Shown one piece after another: positions 53,776 to 61,305 of a stretch of DNA of 64,000 bases. The stretch comes from Streptomyces rimosus (GTDB lineage Bacteria; Actinomycetota; Actinomycetes; Streptomycetales; Streptomycetaceae): assembly GCF_008704655.1 (NCBI RefSeq), contig NZ_CP023688.1, positions 3,286,001 through 3,350,000 of the forward strand. Direction: 5' to 3'. A program made the translations under genes and the position numbers. The first letter of the stretch is position 1. Every line of letters starts with the position of its first letter. The notes beneath the pieces were generated by a model, which saw only the letters and a program-made list of their open reading frames with translations, had not been told where the DNA came from and made no database searches.

Positions 53776-54414
53776 TCAAGCAAGCAACCGCGGCGACAGC
53801 GCCCCACAAGGCAGCAGGTCCACCTCGGCGCCCGCGTCCCGCAGGTCGGTGAGGACCAGTTCGTCGTAGAGGAGCAGGCCCGACTCGGCGGGCCAGACCA
53901 CCGCCCACAGCCACAGGCCGCGCGCCTCCCCGGCGAAGACCGCGCGGTCCTCGGGGGCTCCCTCGACGTGCCACAGCGGGGTCGGGCGTCCGGCGGCCAG
54001 CACTTTCACGTGGGGCGGCTTGTTCACGCACATGTGGGGGCCGGGGTCGGGGCCGTCGATGCCCGCGTAGCGTGCGCCGAGGCCGACGCCCAGTTCCTCG
54101 GCGATCAGCAGCAGTTCGCCGGGGCCGCCGAGCGGGCCGGGTCCCGAGCAGGCCACGGCGGTGGCGCGGCCGCCGCTGCGGTCGTCGCCCGCGCAGGCCA
54201 CGCCCGTGAACAGCCAGCCGACGGGCAGCGGCCACGGCATCCACACCGGTACGCAGGCGCGGCGCACCACCACGGCCAGTGCTTCGACGCTGGGCGGGAC
54301 GACCGGTTGCAGCGGGTGCACGGTGCCGTGCACGCCGCACTGCCAGGAGTCGGCAAAGAGACCGGGCGCCCGCACCCGGCCACCGCACTTCGGGCAACTG
54401 GGTTCGCCCCTCAT
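53776..54414 (-). CDS. DUF6758 family protein with zinc ribbon
   Basis: A 212-residue actinobacterial hypothetical. It starts MRGEPSCPKCGGRV; the CPKCG with a later WQCGVH probably forms a zinc ribbon (residues 7 to 35). The rest is a globular domain with VPVWMPWPLPVGWLFTGV and PHMCVNKPPHVKV. No enzymatic motif is evident. It is divergent from the MFS gene, about 180 bases away. Confidence 0.75.
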   Translation of the reverse strand: MRGEPSCPKCGGRVRAPGLFADSWQCGVHGTVHPLQPVVPPSVEALAVVVRRACVPVWMPWPLPVGWLFTGVACAGDDRSGGRATAVACSGPGPLGGPGELLLIAEELGVGLGARYAGIDGPDPGPHMCVNKPPHVKVLAAGRPTPLWHVEGAPEDRAVFAGEARGLWLWAVVWPAESGLLLYDELVLTDLRDAGAEVDLLPCGALSPRLLA

Positions 54415-54505
54415 AGGGCCCCACGGTCCTCCGGGCCGGGCGCCGCGTCAAGGACGATCACCCATCCGGAGCCCCGGCCGGACATACGCCAGTGGTAGTT
54501 GCAGC

Positions 54506-54544
54506 TTGCACTCTTTAGGGCGACTAACTTATTGTGTGTATACA
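54506..54544 (+). promoter_or_regulatory. Candidate promoter of the MFS gene with palindrome
   Basis: TTGCAC and TATTGT with 18-base spacing lie about 60 bases before the ATG. A perfect TGTATACA palindrome (54537-54544) sits at the expected transcription start, where a repressor could bind. Confidence 0.5.
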
Positions 54545-54592
54545 GCAACGTTCCGCTGGGGCGGAAGCCGACGAGCAGGAAGGGACAGCGGC

Positions 54593-55846
54593 ATGCGGGC
54601 AAGCGACAGCGGCGGCGCCGGAGAGGACCCGTTCGACGAGGGCGGCACCAGCATCCTGCGCCAGCCGATGGCCGTCTGGGCCACGGCCGGCGCCTCGGTC
54701 GTCGCCTTCATGGGCATCGGTCTCGTCGACCCGATCCTCCCCTCGATCGCCAAGGGGCTCCACGCCTCCAACAGCCAGGTCTCCCTGCTGTTCACCTCCT
54801 ACTTCCTGATCACCGCGGTCGCCATGCTGGTCACCGGCTTCGTCTCCAGCCGGATCGGCGGCCGCAAGACGCTGCTGGCCGGGCTGGCGCTGGTGGTGGT
54901 CTTCGCGGCGCTGTCCGGCACGTCCTCCTCGGTGGGCGAACTGGTCGGCTTCCGCGCCGGCTGGGGCCTCGGCAACGCGCTGTTCGTCTCCACCTCACTC
55001 GCCGTGATCGTCGGTGCGGCGGCCGGGGGCAGCGCCGCGGCGATCCTGCTGTACGAGTCGGCGCTCGGCCTCGGCATGGCCTGCGGGCCGCTGCTCGGCG
55101 CGGTCCTCGGCGACATGAAGTGGCGCTACCCCTTCTTCGGCACCGCCGTGCTGATGGCCATCGGCTTCATCGCGATCACCGCGTTCCTCAAGGAGCAGCC
55201 CCGCCCGGCCCGCAAGACGTCCGTACTGGACCCGATCAAGGCGCTCGGCCACGGCGGTCTGGCCTCCGCCGCCGTCTCCGCGTTCTTCTACAACTACGCG
55301 TTCTTCACGGTGCTGGCCTTCACGCCGTTCGTGCTGGACATGAGCCCGTACAAGTCCGGCGGTGTGTTCTTCGCCTGGGGCGTGCTGCTCGCCGTCTTCT
55401 CCGTGCTGGTGGCGCCGCGCGTCCAGGAGCGCTTCGGGTCGCTGAAGGTGCTGGGCGGCTCGCTGGTGCTGCTCGCCGCGGACCTGCTGGTGCTCGGGTA
55501 CGGCAACCACACCACCGCCGTCGTCTGCACGATCCTGTCCGGCGCCTTCATCGGCCTGAACAACACTGTCTTCACCGAGCTGGCCCTCGGCGTCTCCGAC
55601 GCGCCGCGGCCGGTGGCGAGCGCGGGCTACAACTTCGTGCGCTGGTTCGCCGCGGCGGCGGCGCCGTTCCTGGCGCCGAAGATCGAGGAGTGGACGGACG
55701 CGCACATCCCGTTCGTGGTCGCGGCGCTGGCGGCGCTGGTCGGCGCGGGCATCGTGGCCGTACGGCGCCGGGCGCTGACGCTGCGGGCGCACGAGCTGGA
55801 GCCGCGGCACGCCACGGAGGACGGCGTGTCCGCCTTCGCCAACTGA
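54593..55846 (+). CDS. MFS transporter, drug:proton antiporter type
   Basis: A 417-residue major facilitator with 12 predicted helices. After a charged 30-residue N-terminus, helix 1 reads VVAFMGIGLVDPILPSIA, and the loop 2-3 signature SRIGGRKTLLAG is clear. Motif C in helix 5 appears as ALGLGMACGPLLGAVLG, typical of exporters. Small-molecule efflux is likely; the substrate is unknown. AGGAAGGGA precedes the ATG. No regulator gene is adjacent. Confidence 0.92.
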   Translation: MRASDSGGAGEDPFDEGGTSILRQPMAVWATAGASVVAFMGIGLVDPILPSIAKGLHASNSQVSLLFTSYFLITAVAMLVTGFVSSRIGGRKTLLAGLALVVVFAALSGTSSSVGELVGFRAGWGLGNALFVSTSLAVIVGAAAGGSAAAILLYESALGLGMACGPLLGAVLGDMKWRYPFFGTAVLMAIGFIAITAFLKEQPRPARKTSVLDPIKALGHGGLASAAVSAFFYNYAFFTVLAFTPFVLDMSPYKSGGVFFAWGVLLAVFSVLVAPRVQERFGSLKVLGGSLVLLAADLLVLGYGNHTTAVVCTILSGAFIGLNNTVFTELALGVSDAPRPVASAGYNFVRWFAAAAAPFLAPKIEEWTDAHIPFVVAALAALVGAGIVAVRRRALTLRAHELEPRHATEDGVSAFAN

Positions 55847-55864
55847 CGGGCCCTCAGTGCCACG

Positions 55865-55901
55865 GTACGGCGCGCCACCCACCCCGGGCGGCGCGCCGTA
55901 C
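55865..55901. terminator. Bidirectional terminator
   Basis: A perfect 12-bp stem (GTACGGCGCGCC and complement) with a 13-base loop lies between the convergent MFS and SUFU genes. Confidence 0.8.
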
Positions 55902-55969
55902 GCCGTCACGCCCGCCCGTACGCCGTCGCGTCCGCCCTACAACCGGCGCCCACCCCGCAAGCACCCGCC

Positions 55970-56566
55970 CTACGCCAGCGAAACCCCCGCACGCAGCGGA
56001 TCACGCAGATCCGTCCCGCCCTTGAGCCACCGCTCCTGGAGCGCCTCGGCGCCGTGCACCCGCTTCCAGGCGGCCTCGTTGGGCGTCATCGGCAGCAGCG
56101 GCAGGAAGCGGACCGGGTCCAGCGGGGCGTCCAGCTCCAGGTCCTCGATCAGACCGCCGGACTCCGCGACCAGTACGGAGGTGAACGGCGCGCCGGGCCA
56201 CAGCGGCTCCCCCACGTCCAGCGACGCGCCCGGCGCCACGATCACGCCCTCGACCTGCGGGGACGCGGCGAGCACGGCCAGTGCGCGAAGGGCCTTGTCG
56301 GTGTCGGCGCGCCCGGCACGCACCGAGAGCACCAGTTCCGCGCGCGGGCCGCGCACCGGGTCGGCCAGCACCGCCGTGGGGTCGGCCATCGGCCGGTCCG
56401 ACATTCCGAGGGTGACATAGCGCACGAGATCGCCGTCCGGACCGCCACCGAGGAAGCGCAGCACCTCGATGCGGTCGGTGCCGAGGAAGGTGACGGCGGC
56501 GCGCGCGTCCGGCTCGCCCAGGGTCGTACGCAAACGGGCTTCGACCAGCTCAAGAACGTCAGACAT
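55970..56566 (-). CDS. Suppressor-of-fused (SUFU) domain protein
   Basis: A 198-residue single SUFU-like domain: FLGGGPDGDLVRYVTLGMSD, ELVLSVRAG and the late LPLLPMTPNEAAWKRVHG are characteristic. Bacterial SUFU proteins are often immunity-like or of unknown role; here no toxin gene is adjacent. The start is the ATG of MSDVLELVEA. No ribosome site; TATGCT lies 6 bases before it, so the mRNA is likely leaderless. Confidence 0.88.
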   Translation of the reverse strand: MSDVLELVEARLRTTLGEPDARAAVTFLGTDRIEVLRFLGGGPDGDLVRYVTLGMSDRPMADPTAVLADPVRGPRAELVLSVRAGRADTDKALRALAVLAASPQVEGVIVAPGASLDVGEPLWPGAPFTSVLVAESGGLIEDLELDAPLDPVRFLPLLPMTPNEAAWKRVHGAEALQERWLKGGTDLRDPLRAGVSLA

Positions 56567-56769
56567 GCCGCGAGCATAGGCCGGGGCGCGGGCCCGGCCG
56601 CCGCCGCCCGGCGAACGGGCGTACGGCCCCGACGGGGCGTTCGCGGGGACGTTCGTATGGAACGGGCAAAGGCGCGCCGGATCGGTTCCAGCGGCTGATA
56701 GCCTTGCCGTCTGGTCAGGGAATGACGTTCGTCCCCCAGCGGGGACCGGCCGGAGGAGGTGGGGCTGCG

Positions 56770-56841
56770 GTGGATCCAAGTCGACCGTGCAGTACCGACA
56801 GTTCTCCCGTCATCTCCCCGCGCGCCCAGCGGCTTTCTTGA
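56770..56841 (+). CDS. Leader ORF upstream of corA, MgtL-like
   Basis: A 23-codon ORF encoding MDPSRPCSTDSSPVISPR and five more residues. It has GGAGGAGGT ending 9 bases before the GTG, the best ribosome site in the region. The peptide begins with an acidic residue and a proline and has four prolines in its first 17 residues. In enterobacteria MgtL starts MEPDPTP, and such acidic/Pro-rich nascent chains destabilise ribosomes when Mg2+ is low. Its codons 12-16 coincide with one arm of a long RNA stem. Function is inferred; translation is strongly supported by the ribosome site. Confidence 0.6.
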   Translation: MDPSRPCSTDSSPVISPRAQRLS

Positions 56842-56948
56842 TCCAGGGGCTTCCGTACCCCCGCCGCCCGCGGTGAAACCCGCGAAATTCCTTCGCGCCG
56901 GAAGCAGATGACGGAAGAGCGCCTTCGACTCTCGTTTCCGTGTTTTCT
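56803..56948 (+). promoter_or_regulatory. Candidate attenuator in the corA leader
   Basis: TCTCCCGTCATCT (inside the leader ORF) pairs with AGATGACGGAAGA at 56906-56918 at 12 of 13 positions. The alternative partner of that second arm is TTCCGT (56936-56941), pairing with ACGGAA (56911-56916) and followed by GTTTTCT. The two pairings exclude each other. The terminator-like stem is weak (6 bp), so a Rho- or translation-based mechanism is also possible. Confidence 0.45.
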
Positions 56949-57087
56949 GCGAACCGCCGTCAGACCTGCGCACGGAGCGCCGCCCGCTTTGCGGACGTAT
57001 GGCCAGCGCCTACGCGTACGTCCACGTTCCGGGCAGCGTTACGCCGCGCGCCCGCGGCCGGCGGCGTACCCGTGAAGGAGCCTGCCC

Positions 57088-58221
57088 ATGTCGATGATCC
57101 GCGACCTGCGTGCCGCCGTCCGCCCGTCCCGGCGCCGCGAGGACTCCCCGTACAAGTACGACACCGACCTCCGCACGTCCGCCCACACCAACAGCGCCAT
57201 CGTGGACTGCGGCGTCTACCGGGACGGCCGGCGCGTCAGCGACCACGTCACGCCGTCCCAGGCGATGGCGAGCGTGCGCGCCGACAGCGGCTTCGCCTGG
57301 ATCGGGCTGCACGAGCCCACCGAGGCGGAATTCGCCGAGATCGCACGGGAGTTCGGGCTGCACCCGCTGGCGGTGGAGGACGCCGTCCACGCCCACCAGC
57401 GGCCCAAGCTGGAGCGCTACGACGACACCCTGTTCACCGTCTTCAAGACGGTCCACTACGTGGAGCACGCGGAGCTGACCGCCACCAGTGAGGTGGTGGA
57501 GACCGGCGAGGTGATGTGCTTCACCGGCCGGGACTTCATCGTGACCGTGCGGCACGGCGGCCAGGGCTCGCTGCGCGCGCTGCGCCACCGCCTCCAGGAC
57601 GACCCCGAGCTGCTGGGCAAGGGCCCCTCCGCGGTGCTGCACGCCATCGCCGACCAGGTCGTGGACGGCTACATCGCGGTGGCCGGGGCGATGCAGGACG
57701 ACATCGACGAAGTGGAGATCGACGTCTTCAGCTCCGGGTCCGACGGCAAGGGCGCGGGCGGCAAGGGCTCGGCGAAGGGCGGCGACGCCGGGCGGATCTA
57801 CCAACTCAAGCGCGAGGTCCTGGAGTTCAAGCGGGCCGTGTCGCCGCTGCTGCGGCCGATGCAGGTGCTCAGCGAGCGGCCGATGCGGCTGATCGACACC
57901 GACATCCAGAAGTACTTCCGGGACGTGGCCGACCACCTGGCCCGGGTCACCGAGCAGGTGCTCTCCTTCGACGACCTGCTCAACTCGATCCTCCAGGCCA
58001 ATCTGGCGCAGGCGACGGTGGCGCAGAACGAGGACATGCGCAAGATCACCTCGTGGGCGGCGATCTTCGCGGTGCCCACGATGATCGCCGGGATCTACGG
58101 CATGAACTTCGAGTACATGCCCGAGCTGAAGTGGAAGTACGGCTACCCGCTGGTCCTGCTGGTCACGGTCGCCATCTGCTTCGGCATCCACCGCGGCTTC
58201 AAGCGCAACGGCTGGCTGTGA
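57088..58221 (+). CDS. corA: CorA magnesium/cobalt transporter
   Basis: A 377-residue CorA channel. The long N-terminal cytoplasmic funnel (residues 1-315) is rich in acidic residues and includes FAWIGLHEPTEAEF and a Lys/Gly-rich insertion near 213-230 (GSDGKGAGGKGSAKGG). Two C-terminal helices frame the selectivity motif GMN in GIYGMNFEYMPE, and a basic tail ends KRNGWL. CorA pentamers import Mg2+ down its gradient and are gated by cytoplasmic Mg2+. AAGGAG lies 8 bases before the ATG. Upstream lies a long structured leader that may sense Mg2+. Confidence 0.95.
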   Translation: MSMIRDLRAAVRPSRRREDSPYKYDTDLRTSAHTNSAIVDCGVYRDGRRVSDHVTPSQAMASVRADSGFAWIGLHEPTEAEFAEIAREFGLHPLAVEDAVHAHQRPKLERYDDTLFTVFKTVHYVEHAELTATSEVVETGEVMCFTGRDFIVTVRHGGQGSLRALRHRLQDDPELLGKGPSAVLHAIADQVVDGYIAVAGAMQDDIDEVEIDVFSSGSDGKGAGGKGSAKGGDAGRIYQLKREVLEFKRAVSPLLRPMQVLSERPMRLIDTDIQKYFRDVADHLARVTEQVLSFDDLLNSILQANLAQATVAQNEDMRKITSWAAIFAVPTMIAGIYGMNFEYMPELKWKYGYPLVLLVTVAICFGIHRGFKRNGWL

Positions 58222-58256
58222 CGCCCGGCGGTCCGGGCGGCCCGCCCGGACCCCAT

Positions 58257-58262
58257 TAGGCT
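58257..58262 (+). promoter_or_regulatory. Leaderless -10 box
   Basis: TAGGCT lies 6 bases before the ATG of the next gene, which lacks a ribosome site. Confidence 0.4.
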
Positions 58263-58268
58263 GATCCC

Positions 58269-58835
58269 ATGACGGAGACCGTGTCGCAGGCGCTGCTGGA
58301 CCGCGCGCTCATCGAAGAGGCCACGAAGAAGTCCGGCCTCATCTGGGTACGGGGCGCCACCGGCCCGGCGCGGGCCCTGTGGCACGTCTGGCACGACGGC
58401 GCCGCGTGCGTGGTCGGCACGGACGGCGACGGTACGGGCCGGGCCGCCGGGCCCGCCCACGAGCAGCCGCTGCACGACCTCGGCCTGGTGGACGGCGGCA
58501 CCGCGACCGTCACCGTACGCAGCAAGGACAAGGGCGGCCGGCTGGTCAGCTGGCAGGCCCGGGTCAGCGAGCTGGCGCCGGACGGCGAGGCGTGGCAGGC
58601 CGCCGTGGAGGACCTCAAGGGCAAGCGGCTGAACGCGCCGGACGCGGAGACGATGCCGGGGCGCTGGGCGCGCGAATGCCGCGTCCTGAAGCTGGCCCCG
58701 ATCACGGAGGCCGCGGCCCACACGGACTTCGACGACTCCTCCCAGGCCGCCGTGCCCCTCCCCACCCCGGCCACCACCCGCCGCCCGATCCCGGCGGCCC
58801 TCCCGAAGCTCCTGCGGAGGAAGCGGAAGGGGTGA
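58269..58835 (+). CDS. Conserved actinobacterial hypothetical protein
   Basis: A 188-residue protein. The first 145 residues look like a compact beta-barrel (SGLIWVRGATGPARALWHVW, ACVVGTDGDG, LVSWQARVSEL) reminiscent of split-barrel flavin-binding folds, though no cofactor motif is clear. The last 30 residues are Pro-rich, then basic (LPKLLRRKRKG). It lies 47 bases after corA with its own apparent leaderless promoter, so it may or may not be coupled to magnesium uptake. Function unknown. Confidence 0.75.
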   Translation: MTETVSQALLDRALIEEATKKSGLIWVRGATGPARALWHVWHDGAACVVGTDGDGTGRAAGPAHEQPLHDLGLVDGGTATVTVRSKDKGGRLVSWQARVSELAPDGEAWQAAVEDLKGKRLNAPDAETMPGRWARECRVLKLAPITEAAAHTDFDDSSQAAVPLPTPATTRRPIPAALPKLLRRKRKG

Positions 58836-58931
58836 GGGGCGGCAGGGTCCCGGACCGGGGCTTGCGGCGCCCGGCCGATCCGGTGGGTACGCCCCGGTCG
58901 GCTCTGGTCGCCGAGAGCCATCGATGGGAAC

Positions 58932-59726
58932 TCAGTCCCCGATCGTGATCGACTTCCCGTAGTCGATCACCTGGTCCGCCGCCGGCGCCCGCAGGTCCAC
59001 CGGCTTGCCCCAGTCGGTGAGCCGCACCTCCCCGGCGCCGCCCGCGCGGCGCAGCCGCAGTGGATACGGCTTGCCTTCGAGGGAGACGTCGAGGGTGCCG
59101 CCGCTGCCCTGGGCGGCGGCTATGCGGATGGTGCGGGTGCCGTCCACGGCGCCGCGTTCGCCGGCGGTCAGTTTGCCGTGCAGGCCCAGCAGGCTGCTCA
59201 GCAGCGTGCTCTTGTCGGTGAAGCCGCTGAAGCGCTTGTAGACCGGGTCGGAGGCGGGCACCTTCACGTACTTGCCGATGAGCTTGGAGGCGGCCGTCCC
59301 GTCGTTCTTCGAGGGGGCGGCGCCCTTCTCGCGCTCCCAGAAGCCGGCGTCCGCCTTCAGGTACAGCGCGTCGCCGACCCGCAGCAGCTGGAAGGTGGCG
59401 GCCTTGGTGGACAGCTGGCCCTGGGCGCCGTTCTGCCCGAGTCGCATGTCGAGCTTGTACGTACGGCCCTGGCTGACCAGGTTGCCGGCCAGCCGTACCG
59501 TTCCGGCACCGCGGGCGGCCGTCTGCGCCTTGGTCTGGATCTGGTCGGCGGGCAGCTTGCCGACCCCGTTCGTACCGGCGTCCGGGTCCTCGGCCGCACA
59601 GCCCGCCAGCGCCCCGGCGAGCACCGCGCACACCGCCGCCGTCAGCGCCGCCCCGCGCCTGCGGTGCGATGCGGCCGGGCGGCGGGAGCAGGCCCGGACG
59701 GGGCCTGCCGAGGGGTATGTGGTCAC
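58932..59726 (-). CDS. Lipoprotein, LppX/LprG-like
   Basis: A 264-residue lipoprotein. A basic N-terminus, a hydrophobic core (LTAAVCAVLAGALAGC) and a lipobox LAGC give lipidation at about Cys43. The mature part has the half-barrel pattern of LppX_LprAFG/LolA-like proteins: AARGAGTVRLAGNL, YKLDMRLGQN, FQLLRVGDALYLKADAGFW, and IRIAAAQGSG. Such proteins carry lipids or glycolipids outside the membrane. The start is GTG in VTTYPSAGP. It is divergent from the MgtE-like gene. Confidence 0.82.
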   Translation of the reverse strand: MTTYPSAGPVRACSRRPAASHRRRGAALTAAVCAVLAGALAGCAAEDPDAGTNGVGKLPADQIQTKAQTAARGAGTVRLAGNLVSQGRTYKLDMRLGQNGAQGQLSTKAATFQLLRVGDALYLKADAGFWEREKGAAPSKNDGTAASKLIGKYVKVPASDPVYKRFSGFTDKSTLLSSLLGLHGKLTAGERGAVDGTRTIRIAAAQGSGGTLDVSLEGKPYPLRLRRAGGAGEVRLTDWGKPVDLRAPAADQVIDYGKSITIGD

Positions 59727-60006
59727 GACGGCTCTGCTTCCTGATACGGATGACCTCGGCGGCAGTACGGCAGCGTACCCGGGGCCGGGCACGCCGTACG
59801 GCGGAGTACGTGGTGGACACCGTACGGCCCTTCCCACCCGGGCGGCACCGGCCGGTGCACGTTAGCCTGAATTCGGATCAAGGCTCCGCGGGACGCTTCA
59901 CCTGCGGAGGAGCGGCAACACGTAACGCGAGGCAGAAACGGGCGCGGCCGTGGCGACGCGGCGGCCGGGTCCCGGCGGCGGCGGAACGGAAGCGGAGGCA
60001 CTCGGC

Positions 60007-61305
60007 ATGGCGGTGATCACCCCCCGGGTGTTCGTCTCGCATCTCTCGGGCGTCGCCGTCTTCGACCCCAACGGCGACCAGGTCGGCCGGGTGCGCGACC
60101 TGGTGGCGCTGCTGCGGGTCGGCGGCCGGCCGCCCCGGCTGCTGGGCCTGGTCGTCGAGGTGATCAGCCGCCGCCGGATCTTCCTGCCGATGACCCGGGT
60201 GACGGGCGTGGAGTCCGGCCAGGTCATCACCACCGGCGTGGTCAACATGCGGCGCTTCGAACAGCGCGCCTCGGAGACGCTGGTCCTCGGCGAGCTGCTG
60301 GACCGCCGGGTGCGGCTGGTCGAGACGGACGAGGAGGTCACCGTCCTCGACATCGGCATCACCCAGCTGCCGGCCCGCCGCGACTGGGAGATCGAGAAGG
60401 TCTTCGTGCGGAAGGGGAAGGGCGGGGCGCTGCGTCGTAAGGGAGAGACGCTGACGGTCGAGTGGTCGGCCGTCACCGGATTCTCGCTGGAGGAGCACGG
60501 GCAGGGCGCGGAGAATCTGCTCGCCACCTTCGACCAGCTGCGCCCGGCCGACCTGGCCAGCGCCCTGCACCACCTGACGCCCAAGCGGCGCGGCGAGGTG
60601 GCCGCCGCGCTGGACGACGACCGGCTGGCGGACGTCCTGGAGGAGCTGCCGGAGGACGACCGGGTCGAGATCATGGGCAAGCTCGCCGAGGAGCGGGCCG
60701 CCGACGTGCTGGAGGCGATGGACCCGGACGACGCCGCCGACCTGCTCTCCGAGCTGCCGGAGGAGGAGAAGGAGCGGCTGCTCGGCCTGATGCGTCCGGA
60801 CGACGCGGCGGACGTACGGCGCCTGATGGCGTACGAGGAGCGCACCGCGGGCGGCCTGATGACCACCGAGCCAATCGTGCTGCGGCCGGACGCGACGATC
60901 GCGGACGCGCTGGCCCGGGTGCGCGACCCGGACCTCTCGCCGTCGCTGGCCGCCCAGGTGTACGTGTGCCGGCCGCCGGACGAGACGCCGACCGGCAAGT
61001 ACCTGGGCCTGGTGCACTTCCAGCGGCTGCTGCGCGACCCGCCGTTCACGCTCGTCAGCTCCGTCGCCGACACCGATCTGCCGCCGCTCCCGCCGGACAC
61101 CCCGCTGAACGAGGTGACCAGCTATCTGGCCACGTACAACATGGTCGCGGCGCCGGTCGTGGACGAGAGCGGCTCGCTGCTGGGCGCGGTGACCGTCGAC
61201 GACGTACTGGACCATCTGCTGCCCGAGGACTGGCGCGAGGCGGAGATGCACGGCCCGCCCGGCGCGGCGGCGGACCGGGAGGGAGAGCCGGACGATGGGC
61301 GTTGA
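60007..61305 (+). CDS. MgtE N-domain and CBS protein without a channel
   Basis: A 432-residue soluble protein. Residues 1-165 hold PRC-barrel-like repeats (VFDPNGDQVGRVRDLVALL). About 165-275 form the MgtE N-terminal superhelix (LRPADLASALHHL, EELPEDDRVEIM, MDPDDAADLLSELP). About 280-415 are a CBS pair with ERTAGGLMTTEP and MVAAPVVDESGSLLGAV. The transmembrane channel of true MgtE is missing: no hydrophobic helix follows. It likely senses Mg2+ and regulates a partner. GGAGG lies 8 bases before the ATG. It overlaps the DUF1003 gene by 11 bases. Confidence 0.9.
   Translation: MAVITPRVFVSHLSGVAVFDPNGDQVGRVRDLVALLRVGGRPPRLLGLVVEVISRRRIFLPMTRVTGVESGQVITTGVVNMRRFEQRASETLVLGELLDRRVRLVETDEEVTVLDIGITQLPARRDWEIEKVFVRKGKGGALRRKGETLTVEWSAVTGFSLEEHGQGAENLLATFDQLRPADLASALHHLTPKRRGEVAAALDDDRLADVLEELPEDDRVEIMGKLAEERAADVLEAMDPDDAADLLSELPEEEKERLLGLMRPDDAADVRRLMAYEERTAGGLMTTEPIVLRPDATIADALARVRDPDLSPSLAAQVYVCRPPDETPTGKYLGLVHFQRLLRDPPFTLVSSVADTDLPPLPPDTPLNEVTSYLATYNMVAAPVVDESGSLLGAVTVDDVLDHLLPEDWREAEMHGPPGAAADREGEPDDGR

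Follow-up and report, generated by a model that had tools for sequence, protein, structure and literature searches.

The M-box (ykoK) riboswitch is a leader element of a Mg2+ transporter gene. So far, a layout in which a short upstream open reading frame (uORF) precedes corA has been known from enteric bacteria, E. coli among them. The E. coli study (PMC11552253) describes a corA leader with the uORF corL and two alternative structures, in which Rho is involved and Mg2+ matters; it reports corL translation to be inversely related to corA expression and notes that enterobacterial corA was formerly considered constitutive. Within Streptomyces, the main text of a leader catalogue of S. lividans TK24 (PMC8079986) lists trpL, leuL, ilvL, thrL, metL, and alaL, which are ribosome-mediated attenuators interpreted as sensors of the cognate amino acid, together with 22 Rfam elements.

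The window analyzed here is a stretch of 64,000 nucleotides (G000:C1:3286001-3350000), judged from its relatives to belong to Streptomyces. It contains the following gene and ribosome-binding site:
57088..58221, plus strand: corA, 377 amino acids, CorA-like Mg2+ transporter (Pfam PF01544, E 2.4e-57)
57074..57080, plus strand: corA Shine-Dalgarno (SD) GAAGGAG, read from the sequence; AGGAG is kept in the alignment

A divergent gene on the minus strand lies 5' of the leader (window 55970-56566) and encodes a SUFU domain (PF05076, E 4.6e-27). A few open reading frames 3' of corA, a gene at window 59950-61305 has MgtE_N and CBS domains (Pfam), and it may form a small magnesium locus with corA. No Rfam family, the M-box included, matched window positions 54000-60000 even at E values up to 1, and an Rfam-listed element was rejected on this basis.

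The closest known layout to the leader of this gene appears to be that of enterobacterial corL-corA, with which homology is not demonstrable. As corL-corA is described (PMC11552253), the two share the target gene corA and a uORF near the 5' end, and would also have in common alternative leader structures, a uORF SD that can be sequestered, a further stem ahead of corA, and a conserved N-terminus with a single proline, although E. coli belongs to a different phylum. With the mgtA leader and its MgtL peptide (Salmonella/E. coli), as covered in the same paper (PMC11552253), the leader has in common a uORF, putative alternative mRNA structures, and a Mg2+ transporter as target; however, the target is CorA and not MgtA, and where the peptide is conserved it is not rich in proline or acidic residues. 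The Streptomyces attenuators are likewise small genes for leader peptides within 5' UTRs, and some of them lack a U-rich terminator, but the corA leader goes unmentioned in their catalogue, in the main text of which "cora" and "magnesium" occur 0 times (PMC8079986). Comparison of sequences established a conserved uORF with a conserved frame, a pairing between two leader segments (arm1 and arm2), and linkage to one corA gene. In Streptomyces and its relatives, this tiny conserved gene of the corA leader is apparently translated, and it seems to toggle the RNA between alternative folds.

The uORF and its conserved parts are located as follows:
56770..56841, plus strand: uORF, 23 codons and a stop, MDPSRPCSTDSSPVISPRAQRLS; start, SD spacing, and frame are conserved
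56754..56761, plus strand: uORF SD AGGAGGTG; invariant columns in alignment A1 (88 sequences)
56785..56796, plus strand: conserved codons 6-9, CCG TGC AGT ACC, encoding P-C-S-T; counted over 64 distinct sequences and also present in another family

Direct reading places the GTG start codon at 56770 and the TGA stop codon at 56839-56841. A preliminary description of this DNA had proposed a 23-codon open reading frame with the SD AGGAGGTG; both lie at these positions, the start residue being encoded by GTG, not ATG. In many other genera, the SD takes the form GGGAGGTG. The block GGGACCGGCCGGAGGAGGTGGGG, with two substitutions allowed in its SD part, is found 258-510 nt 5' of corA in 80/80 loci representing the best 80 of at least 590 confirmed corA relatives (79 titled Streptomyces and one "Actinobacteria bacterium OK074"), and a uORF follows it in each of these (L004 was read separately). 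In a more divergent set of 29 loci, from which L192 was left unparsed, the block is followed by the CorA start at a distance of 151-515 nt in 28/28 parsed loci. The feature shared with corL-corA, namely, a uORF in the presumably transcribed corA 5' leader, was found in all 80 and all 28 of these loci. The uORF comprises 15-31 codons (median 21) in 108/109 leaders parsed, starting with ATG in 61 and GTG in 47 of the 108; the 109th, L035, was missed by the parsing pattern, yet its uORF closed in a separate reading.

Codon usage was counted over the 64 distinct first-36-nt sequences found among 98 leaders without an indel; L194 is out of register among the 64, and the parsing script assigned L188, L189, L191, L193, and L194 an upstream in-frame GTG. 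The conserved core of the peptide is S-x-P-C-S-T. Codon 3 encodes Pro in 33 sequences and Arg in 25, with Thr (4) and His (2) making up the rest; codon 4 is Ser in 62/64, codon 6 is Pro in 59/64, codon 7 is Cys in 58/64 (with four Gly and two Ala), codon 8 is AGT (Ser) in 63/64, and codon 9 is Thr in 57/64. The place of codon 7 is taken by Arg or Ser in loci L004, L155, L157, and L190, and Asp2 can be replaced by His or Asn in other genera. Example peptides from other genera are MDTSRPCSTGSSP and MHTSTPCSTGGSP. In G150, a genome of another family, the peptide reads MNTSQPCSTSCSPLSARVG and retains P-C-S-T. The analogy with MgtL drawn in the preliminary description holds for a uORF with pairing arms but, given the counts at codons 3 and 6, not for a proline- or acid-rich peptide.

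The constancy of Cys7 and Ser8 could point to an amino-acid attenuator, in which starvation for cysteine (or for serine or proline) would stall the ribosome at codons 6-9 and switch the fold, and a comparative study (PMC1262725) reports cysteine leader peptides without obvious terminators in other Actinobacteria. We consider this very unlikely, because Cys7 gives way to four other residues in the sequences and loci listed above, the uORF lacks a run of any one amino acid's codons, a test for U-tract intrinsic terminators was negative (0 sites within 56560-57100 and none common across clades in 109 leaders), and the controlled gene serves metal transport instead of biosynthesis.

Every insertion or deletion seen within codons 1-8 has a length divisible by three (+3 in L004, +6 in L064, +3 in L155 and L157, +3 in L182, -3 in L190, and -3 in L194), whereas single-base indels occur only beyond codon 8: L042 has lost a base at codons 9-10, and L077 has gained one past codon 10. 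Because of this pattern, we argue that the first codons of the uORF are translated, and the events in L042 and L077 suggest that its tail is free of frame constraint. Conservation of the start and codons, put forward as a check in the preliminary description, was supported, with the SD and start fixed and indels of codons 1-8 in frame.

The segments predicted to pair within the leader are as follows:
56801..56815, plus strand: arm1 GTTCTCCCGTCATCT, inside the uORF (codons 11-16, with a 9-nt core in codons 11-14); pairs with arm2 and could also pair with the uORF SD
56906..56920, plus strand: arm2 AGATGACGGAAGAGC, with the conserved core CGGAAGAGC
56911..56948, plus strand: local arm2/arm3 hairpin, ACGGAA (56911-56916) and TTCCGT (56936-56941) followed by GTTTTCT, in the window and close relatives

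A 13-base pairing of 56803-56815 with 56906-56918 had been described previously; it is present and extends to 56801-56815/56906-56920, comprising 13 Watson-Crick pairs, one G-U pair, and one C-A mismatch. Its score of 30 compares with a shuffled mean of 20.9 (0/20 shuffles as high). As the same single-leader test (at most 1/20 shuffles as high) was passed by only 34/109 leaders, it is conservation that carries the case. The arm2 core CGGAAGAGC is exact in 77/109 leaders and has at most one mismatch in 91/109, versus 0.0 and 2.2, respectively, in shuffles of the same leaders. When arms were permuted among leaders, own arms gave 219/297 Watson-Crick pairs over 33 distinct arm pairs versus a permuted mean of 204.2, and 0/5000 permutations were as high; this test ignores kinship among leaders and located arm2 by a loose motif of its own (3 mismatches), present in 103/109 leaders and lacking in 6/109. 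Coordinated changes were seen in L003/L005/L018, L176, L183-L185, and L187, including GTTC..:..GAAC (L003, L005, and L018), CTTCCC:GGGAAG (L176), CTCTCCCG:CGGGAGAG (L184), and GCTCGCCCG:CGGGTGAGC (L187). The best-scoring arm1 begins 3-4 nt past codon 9 in 75/109 leaders, and the uORF stop lies 2 to 53 nt beyond the arm1 core (median 20, 109 leaders). The covariation upholds the earlier claim that an arm within the uORF pairs downstream, but masking of that arm by full translation is not forced, given these positions of the stop codon.

Pairing of arm1 with the uORF SD is predicted from computed duplex energies, which amount to -12.5 kcal/mol in the window and range from -12.5 to -25.4 kcal/mol over 20 leaders. 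The corresponding range for arm1 with its best downstream partner is -15.7 to -29.7 kcal/mol (20 leaders), this being the best partner found, which in L187 differs from arm2. The folds would be mutually exclusive; the arm1:arm2 state is backed by covariation, the rival SD:arm1 state by the energies, and arm2 can also fold locally. Of the two stems for which covariation had likewise been suggested earlier as a check, arm1:arm2 showed it in the permutation test, and the arm2/arm3 stem carries a matching change, ACGGTA/TACCG, in L010, L013, L014, and L016.

The 6-bp stem at 56911-56941 with its GTTTTCT tail had been regarded as terminator-like. The stem exists, but its reading as a terminator was not sustained: a consensus scan of 56560-57100 returned 0 terminator-like sites (shuffled mean, 0.7), inspection of 109 leaders found no hairpin with a U-run common to different clades, and the stem with its U-tract is confined to the window's own clade. 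A general intrinsic terminator was rejected on the basis of the scan and the clade-limited stem. Candidate Rho rut signals were present 3' of arm2 in 13/103 leaders and between the uORF and arm2 in 7/109, versus 185/12788 background stretches, and the bias of C over G in the spacer is modest (0.40 versus 0.26).

A translation-gated switch of corA operating through the leader uORF is the best reading of these data and is probably correct. We infer that corA mRNA begins with a long leader and that the short uORF close to its 5' end is translated in vivo. Arm1, situated just past codon 9, could pair either with the uORF SD or with arm2, and arm2 could alternatively form a local hairpin with arm3. 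A ribosome that decodes or pauses at codons 6-9 (P-C-S-T) would, given the size of a ribosome footprint, sit over the start of arm1 and leave arm2 free; upon failure to initiate or early drop-off, arm1 would engage arm2 or re-close the uORF SD. The RNA state arising from uORF translation would then set the amount of corA mRNA or of CorA. By analogy with enterobacterial corL, high internal Mg2+ may allow efficient uORF translation and lower corA, the sign of this effect being a guess, and the same analogy suggests that lowering would probably involve Rho and not an intrinsic terminator.

The uORF could instead act on corA translation or mRNA stability, without transcription attenuation. Such an action would fit the lack of a conserved intrinsic terminator, the complementarity between arm1 and the uORF SD in the 20 leaders for which energies were computed, and the position of two further elements, P1 and H3 (listed below), adjoining the corA SD. 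However, the uORF stop and the corA start are separated by 34 to 443 nt, with a median of 246 over 109 leaders, which makes direct translational coupling unlikely in most leaders, and we regard this alternative as somewhat improbable.

Additional elements lie on either side of the uORF and the pairing arms:
56699..56704, plus strand: TAGCCT, a candidate -10 box of the TAnnnT type, part of a conserved GGCTGATAG-YCTTGG element; weak, from an alignment of 81 loci
56731..56746, plus strand: H1, 5' hairpin GTCCCC-CAGC-GGGGAC directly 5' of the uORF SD; 99.1% of cells paired in 88 sequences
56973..57048, plus strand: H3, long hairpin with conserved CUUUG and UUCC internal-loop flanks; from its 5'-arm pattern and covariation on alignment A2
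56956..56961, plus strand: 5' strand of P1, GCCGTC; clade consensus fold, alignment A4
57060..57065, plus strand: 3' strand of P1, GGCGGC; clade consensus fold, alignment A4, by inspection

TAnnnT is the -10 consensus of S. lividans according to the catalogue (PMC8079986); the candidate box is weak because a sigma-70-type scan of the sequence gave 0 sites. The distance from the GGCTGATAG-YCTTGG (TGATAG) element to the uORF block differs between clades in the alignment of 81 loci. In H1, one pair varies as CG 53, UG 20, and UA 13 among the 88 sequences, and the covariation score exceeded all 500 shuffles, yet its 1 double-change pair was also reached by 499/500 shuffles. The H3 5'-arm pattern (at most 4 mismatches) was found in 80/81 corA loci, with L011 as the miss. 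On alignment A2, which holds 42 of the 80 H3 loci, mostly with short loops, and from which the tested structure was itself derived, 97.6% of cells are paired and 5/14 pairs show double changes, with 0/500 shuffles as high. When the H3 model R2 was run against 26 genomes (the own genome, three leader-less ones of the genus, and other genera), the own genome alone matched (0/25 others), and the pattern is absent from three divergent loci of the same genus (L155-L157); H3 therefore looks like an addition within Streptomyces. With its conserved pyrimidine-rich internal-loop flanks, it could represent a riboswitch-like or protein-binding element in its own right. By inspection, P1 encloses H3 and ends 8 nt ahead of the corA SD.

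Wobble positions of uORF codons 4-8 are almost as constant as the other positions; since these third positions vary so little, part of the constraint would seem to act on RNA or DNA and not on the peptide. Pairing around the uORF start codon was predicted as a cause of this conservation, but showed no double changes. An explanation that takes the constraint further is that the whole block functions as RNA or DNA, whether as a riboswitch domain, a protein-binding site, or part of a promoter, and that the open reading frame in it is incidental. The very high wobble conservation, the covariation in H1 and H3, and the resemblance of H3 and P1, beside the corA SD, to a riboswitch-like junction all agree with it. 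It is nonetheless unlikely, as indels in codons 1-8 are in frame only, the arrangement of SD and start codon is constant, spacing to the upstream TGATAG element is variable, and model R2 of H3 gives no match in other genera retaining the uORF block.

Relatedness of the putative translation-gated switch to corL was assessed at the peptide and locus levels. E. coli CorL (annotated ysgD; L212:4219-4275) begins MDTPSR, recalling the MDPSR/MDTSR of Streptomycetaceae uORFs. This likeness is insignificant, with 56/5000 shuffles and 117/5000 random peptides scoring as high and CorL ranking fifth among 148 short open reading frames of the same 10 kb, and model R3 gave no match to the E. coli corA locus L212, the one E. 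coli sequence compared. A conserved counterpart spanning an actinobacterial family, without detectable homology, would point to more than one origin of translation-gated CorA control. It is possible, if doubtful, that corA control by uORF translation arose independently in Actinobacteria, with ribosome performance on P-C-S-T serving as a proxy for internal Mg2+ and the Streptomyces H3 and P1 elements providing a separate input; were an independent origin true, translation-sensing uORFs would be a general bacterial way of controlling CorA. Among the open-licence titles listed, none has a Streptomyces corA leader as its topic, with a description elsewhere being possible, and "cora" is absent from the main texts of an actinobacterial attenuator comparison (PMC1262725) and a 50-genome noncoding RNA study (PMC11109978). 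The leader would add a regulatory element outside all Rfam families and the main text of the S. lividans catalogue (PMC8079986), and it would offer a compact, testable system in a model Streptomyces for how ribosome behavior reports Mg2+ or another signal.

The distribution of the block was surveyed at several taxonomic depths. A DNA search found it in 143/150 genomes of the genus; among the seven others, three have no CorA match and four have only a relative of 61-64% identity, which is the level of the own genome's 64% paralog, itself without such a leader. Identity does not decide whether these four may be orthologs that lost the leader. A covariance model of the block matched 180/197 genomes of the order, namely, 179/181 of the genus and G150 of another family; it missed G176, G247, and G298, which have CorA relatives of 31-33% only, and all 14 genomes of family f3. 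In a sample of the family, the block was present in 24/31 genomes and 15/17 genera sampled; 26/31 had passed E 0.001, and G326 and G349 were dropped as chance matches. G349 is a counter-example, having a 68% CorA with a similar N-terminus and no leader found. A search of 346 genomes across the phylum, run under stricter filters, yielded 11 matches at E 1e-4, 10 of which fall in the genus; occurrence in other Actinobacteria was rejected, as G519, outside the genus, gave only a partial, weak match.

Some loci did not enter the alignments. Alignment A1 omits the identical segments L005, L014, L016, L048, L061, L081, L082, L087, and L110, and the loci L083, L084, L086, L088, L090, L093, L094, L099-L102, L106, L107, and L109 were unused because the pattern missed the block in their stored orientation; the DNA search does report block matches there.

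The own genome has a single block match, and 18 genomes searched again each gave one strong match, with E at 1.3e-11 or better. The idea of another leader at other sites in Streptomyces genomes was rejected, the 12 weaker matches (L159-L170) being other sequence by eye, as was a leader at the two own CorA paralogs (L116 and L119), where the model has no match. The own genome also carries a CorA-like fragment with an in-frame TAG (G000:C1:2231142-2231336), close to a full CorA at 2217169. The assembly of Streptomyces sp. ERV7 has two contigs (L060 and L061) on which corA is preceded by this leader block and uORF.
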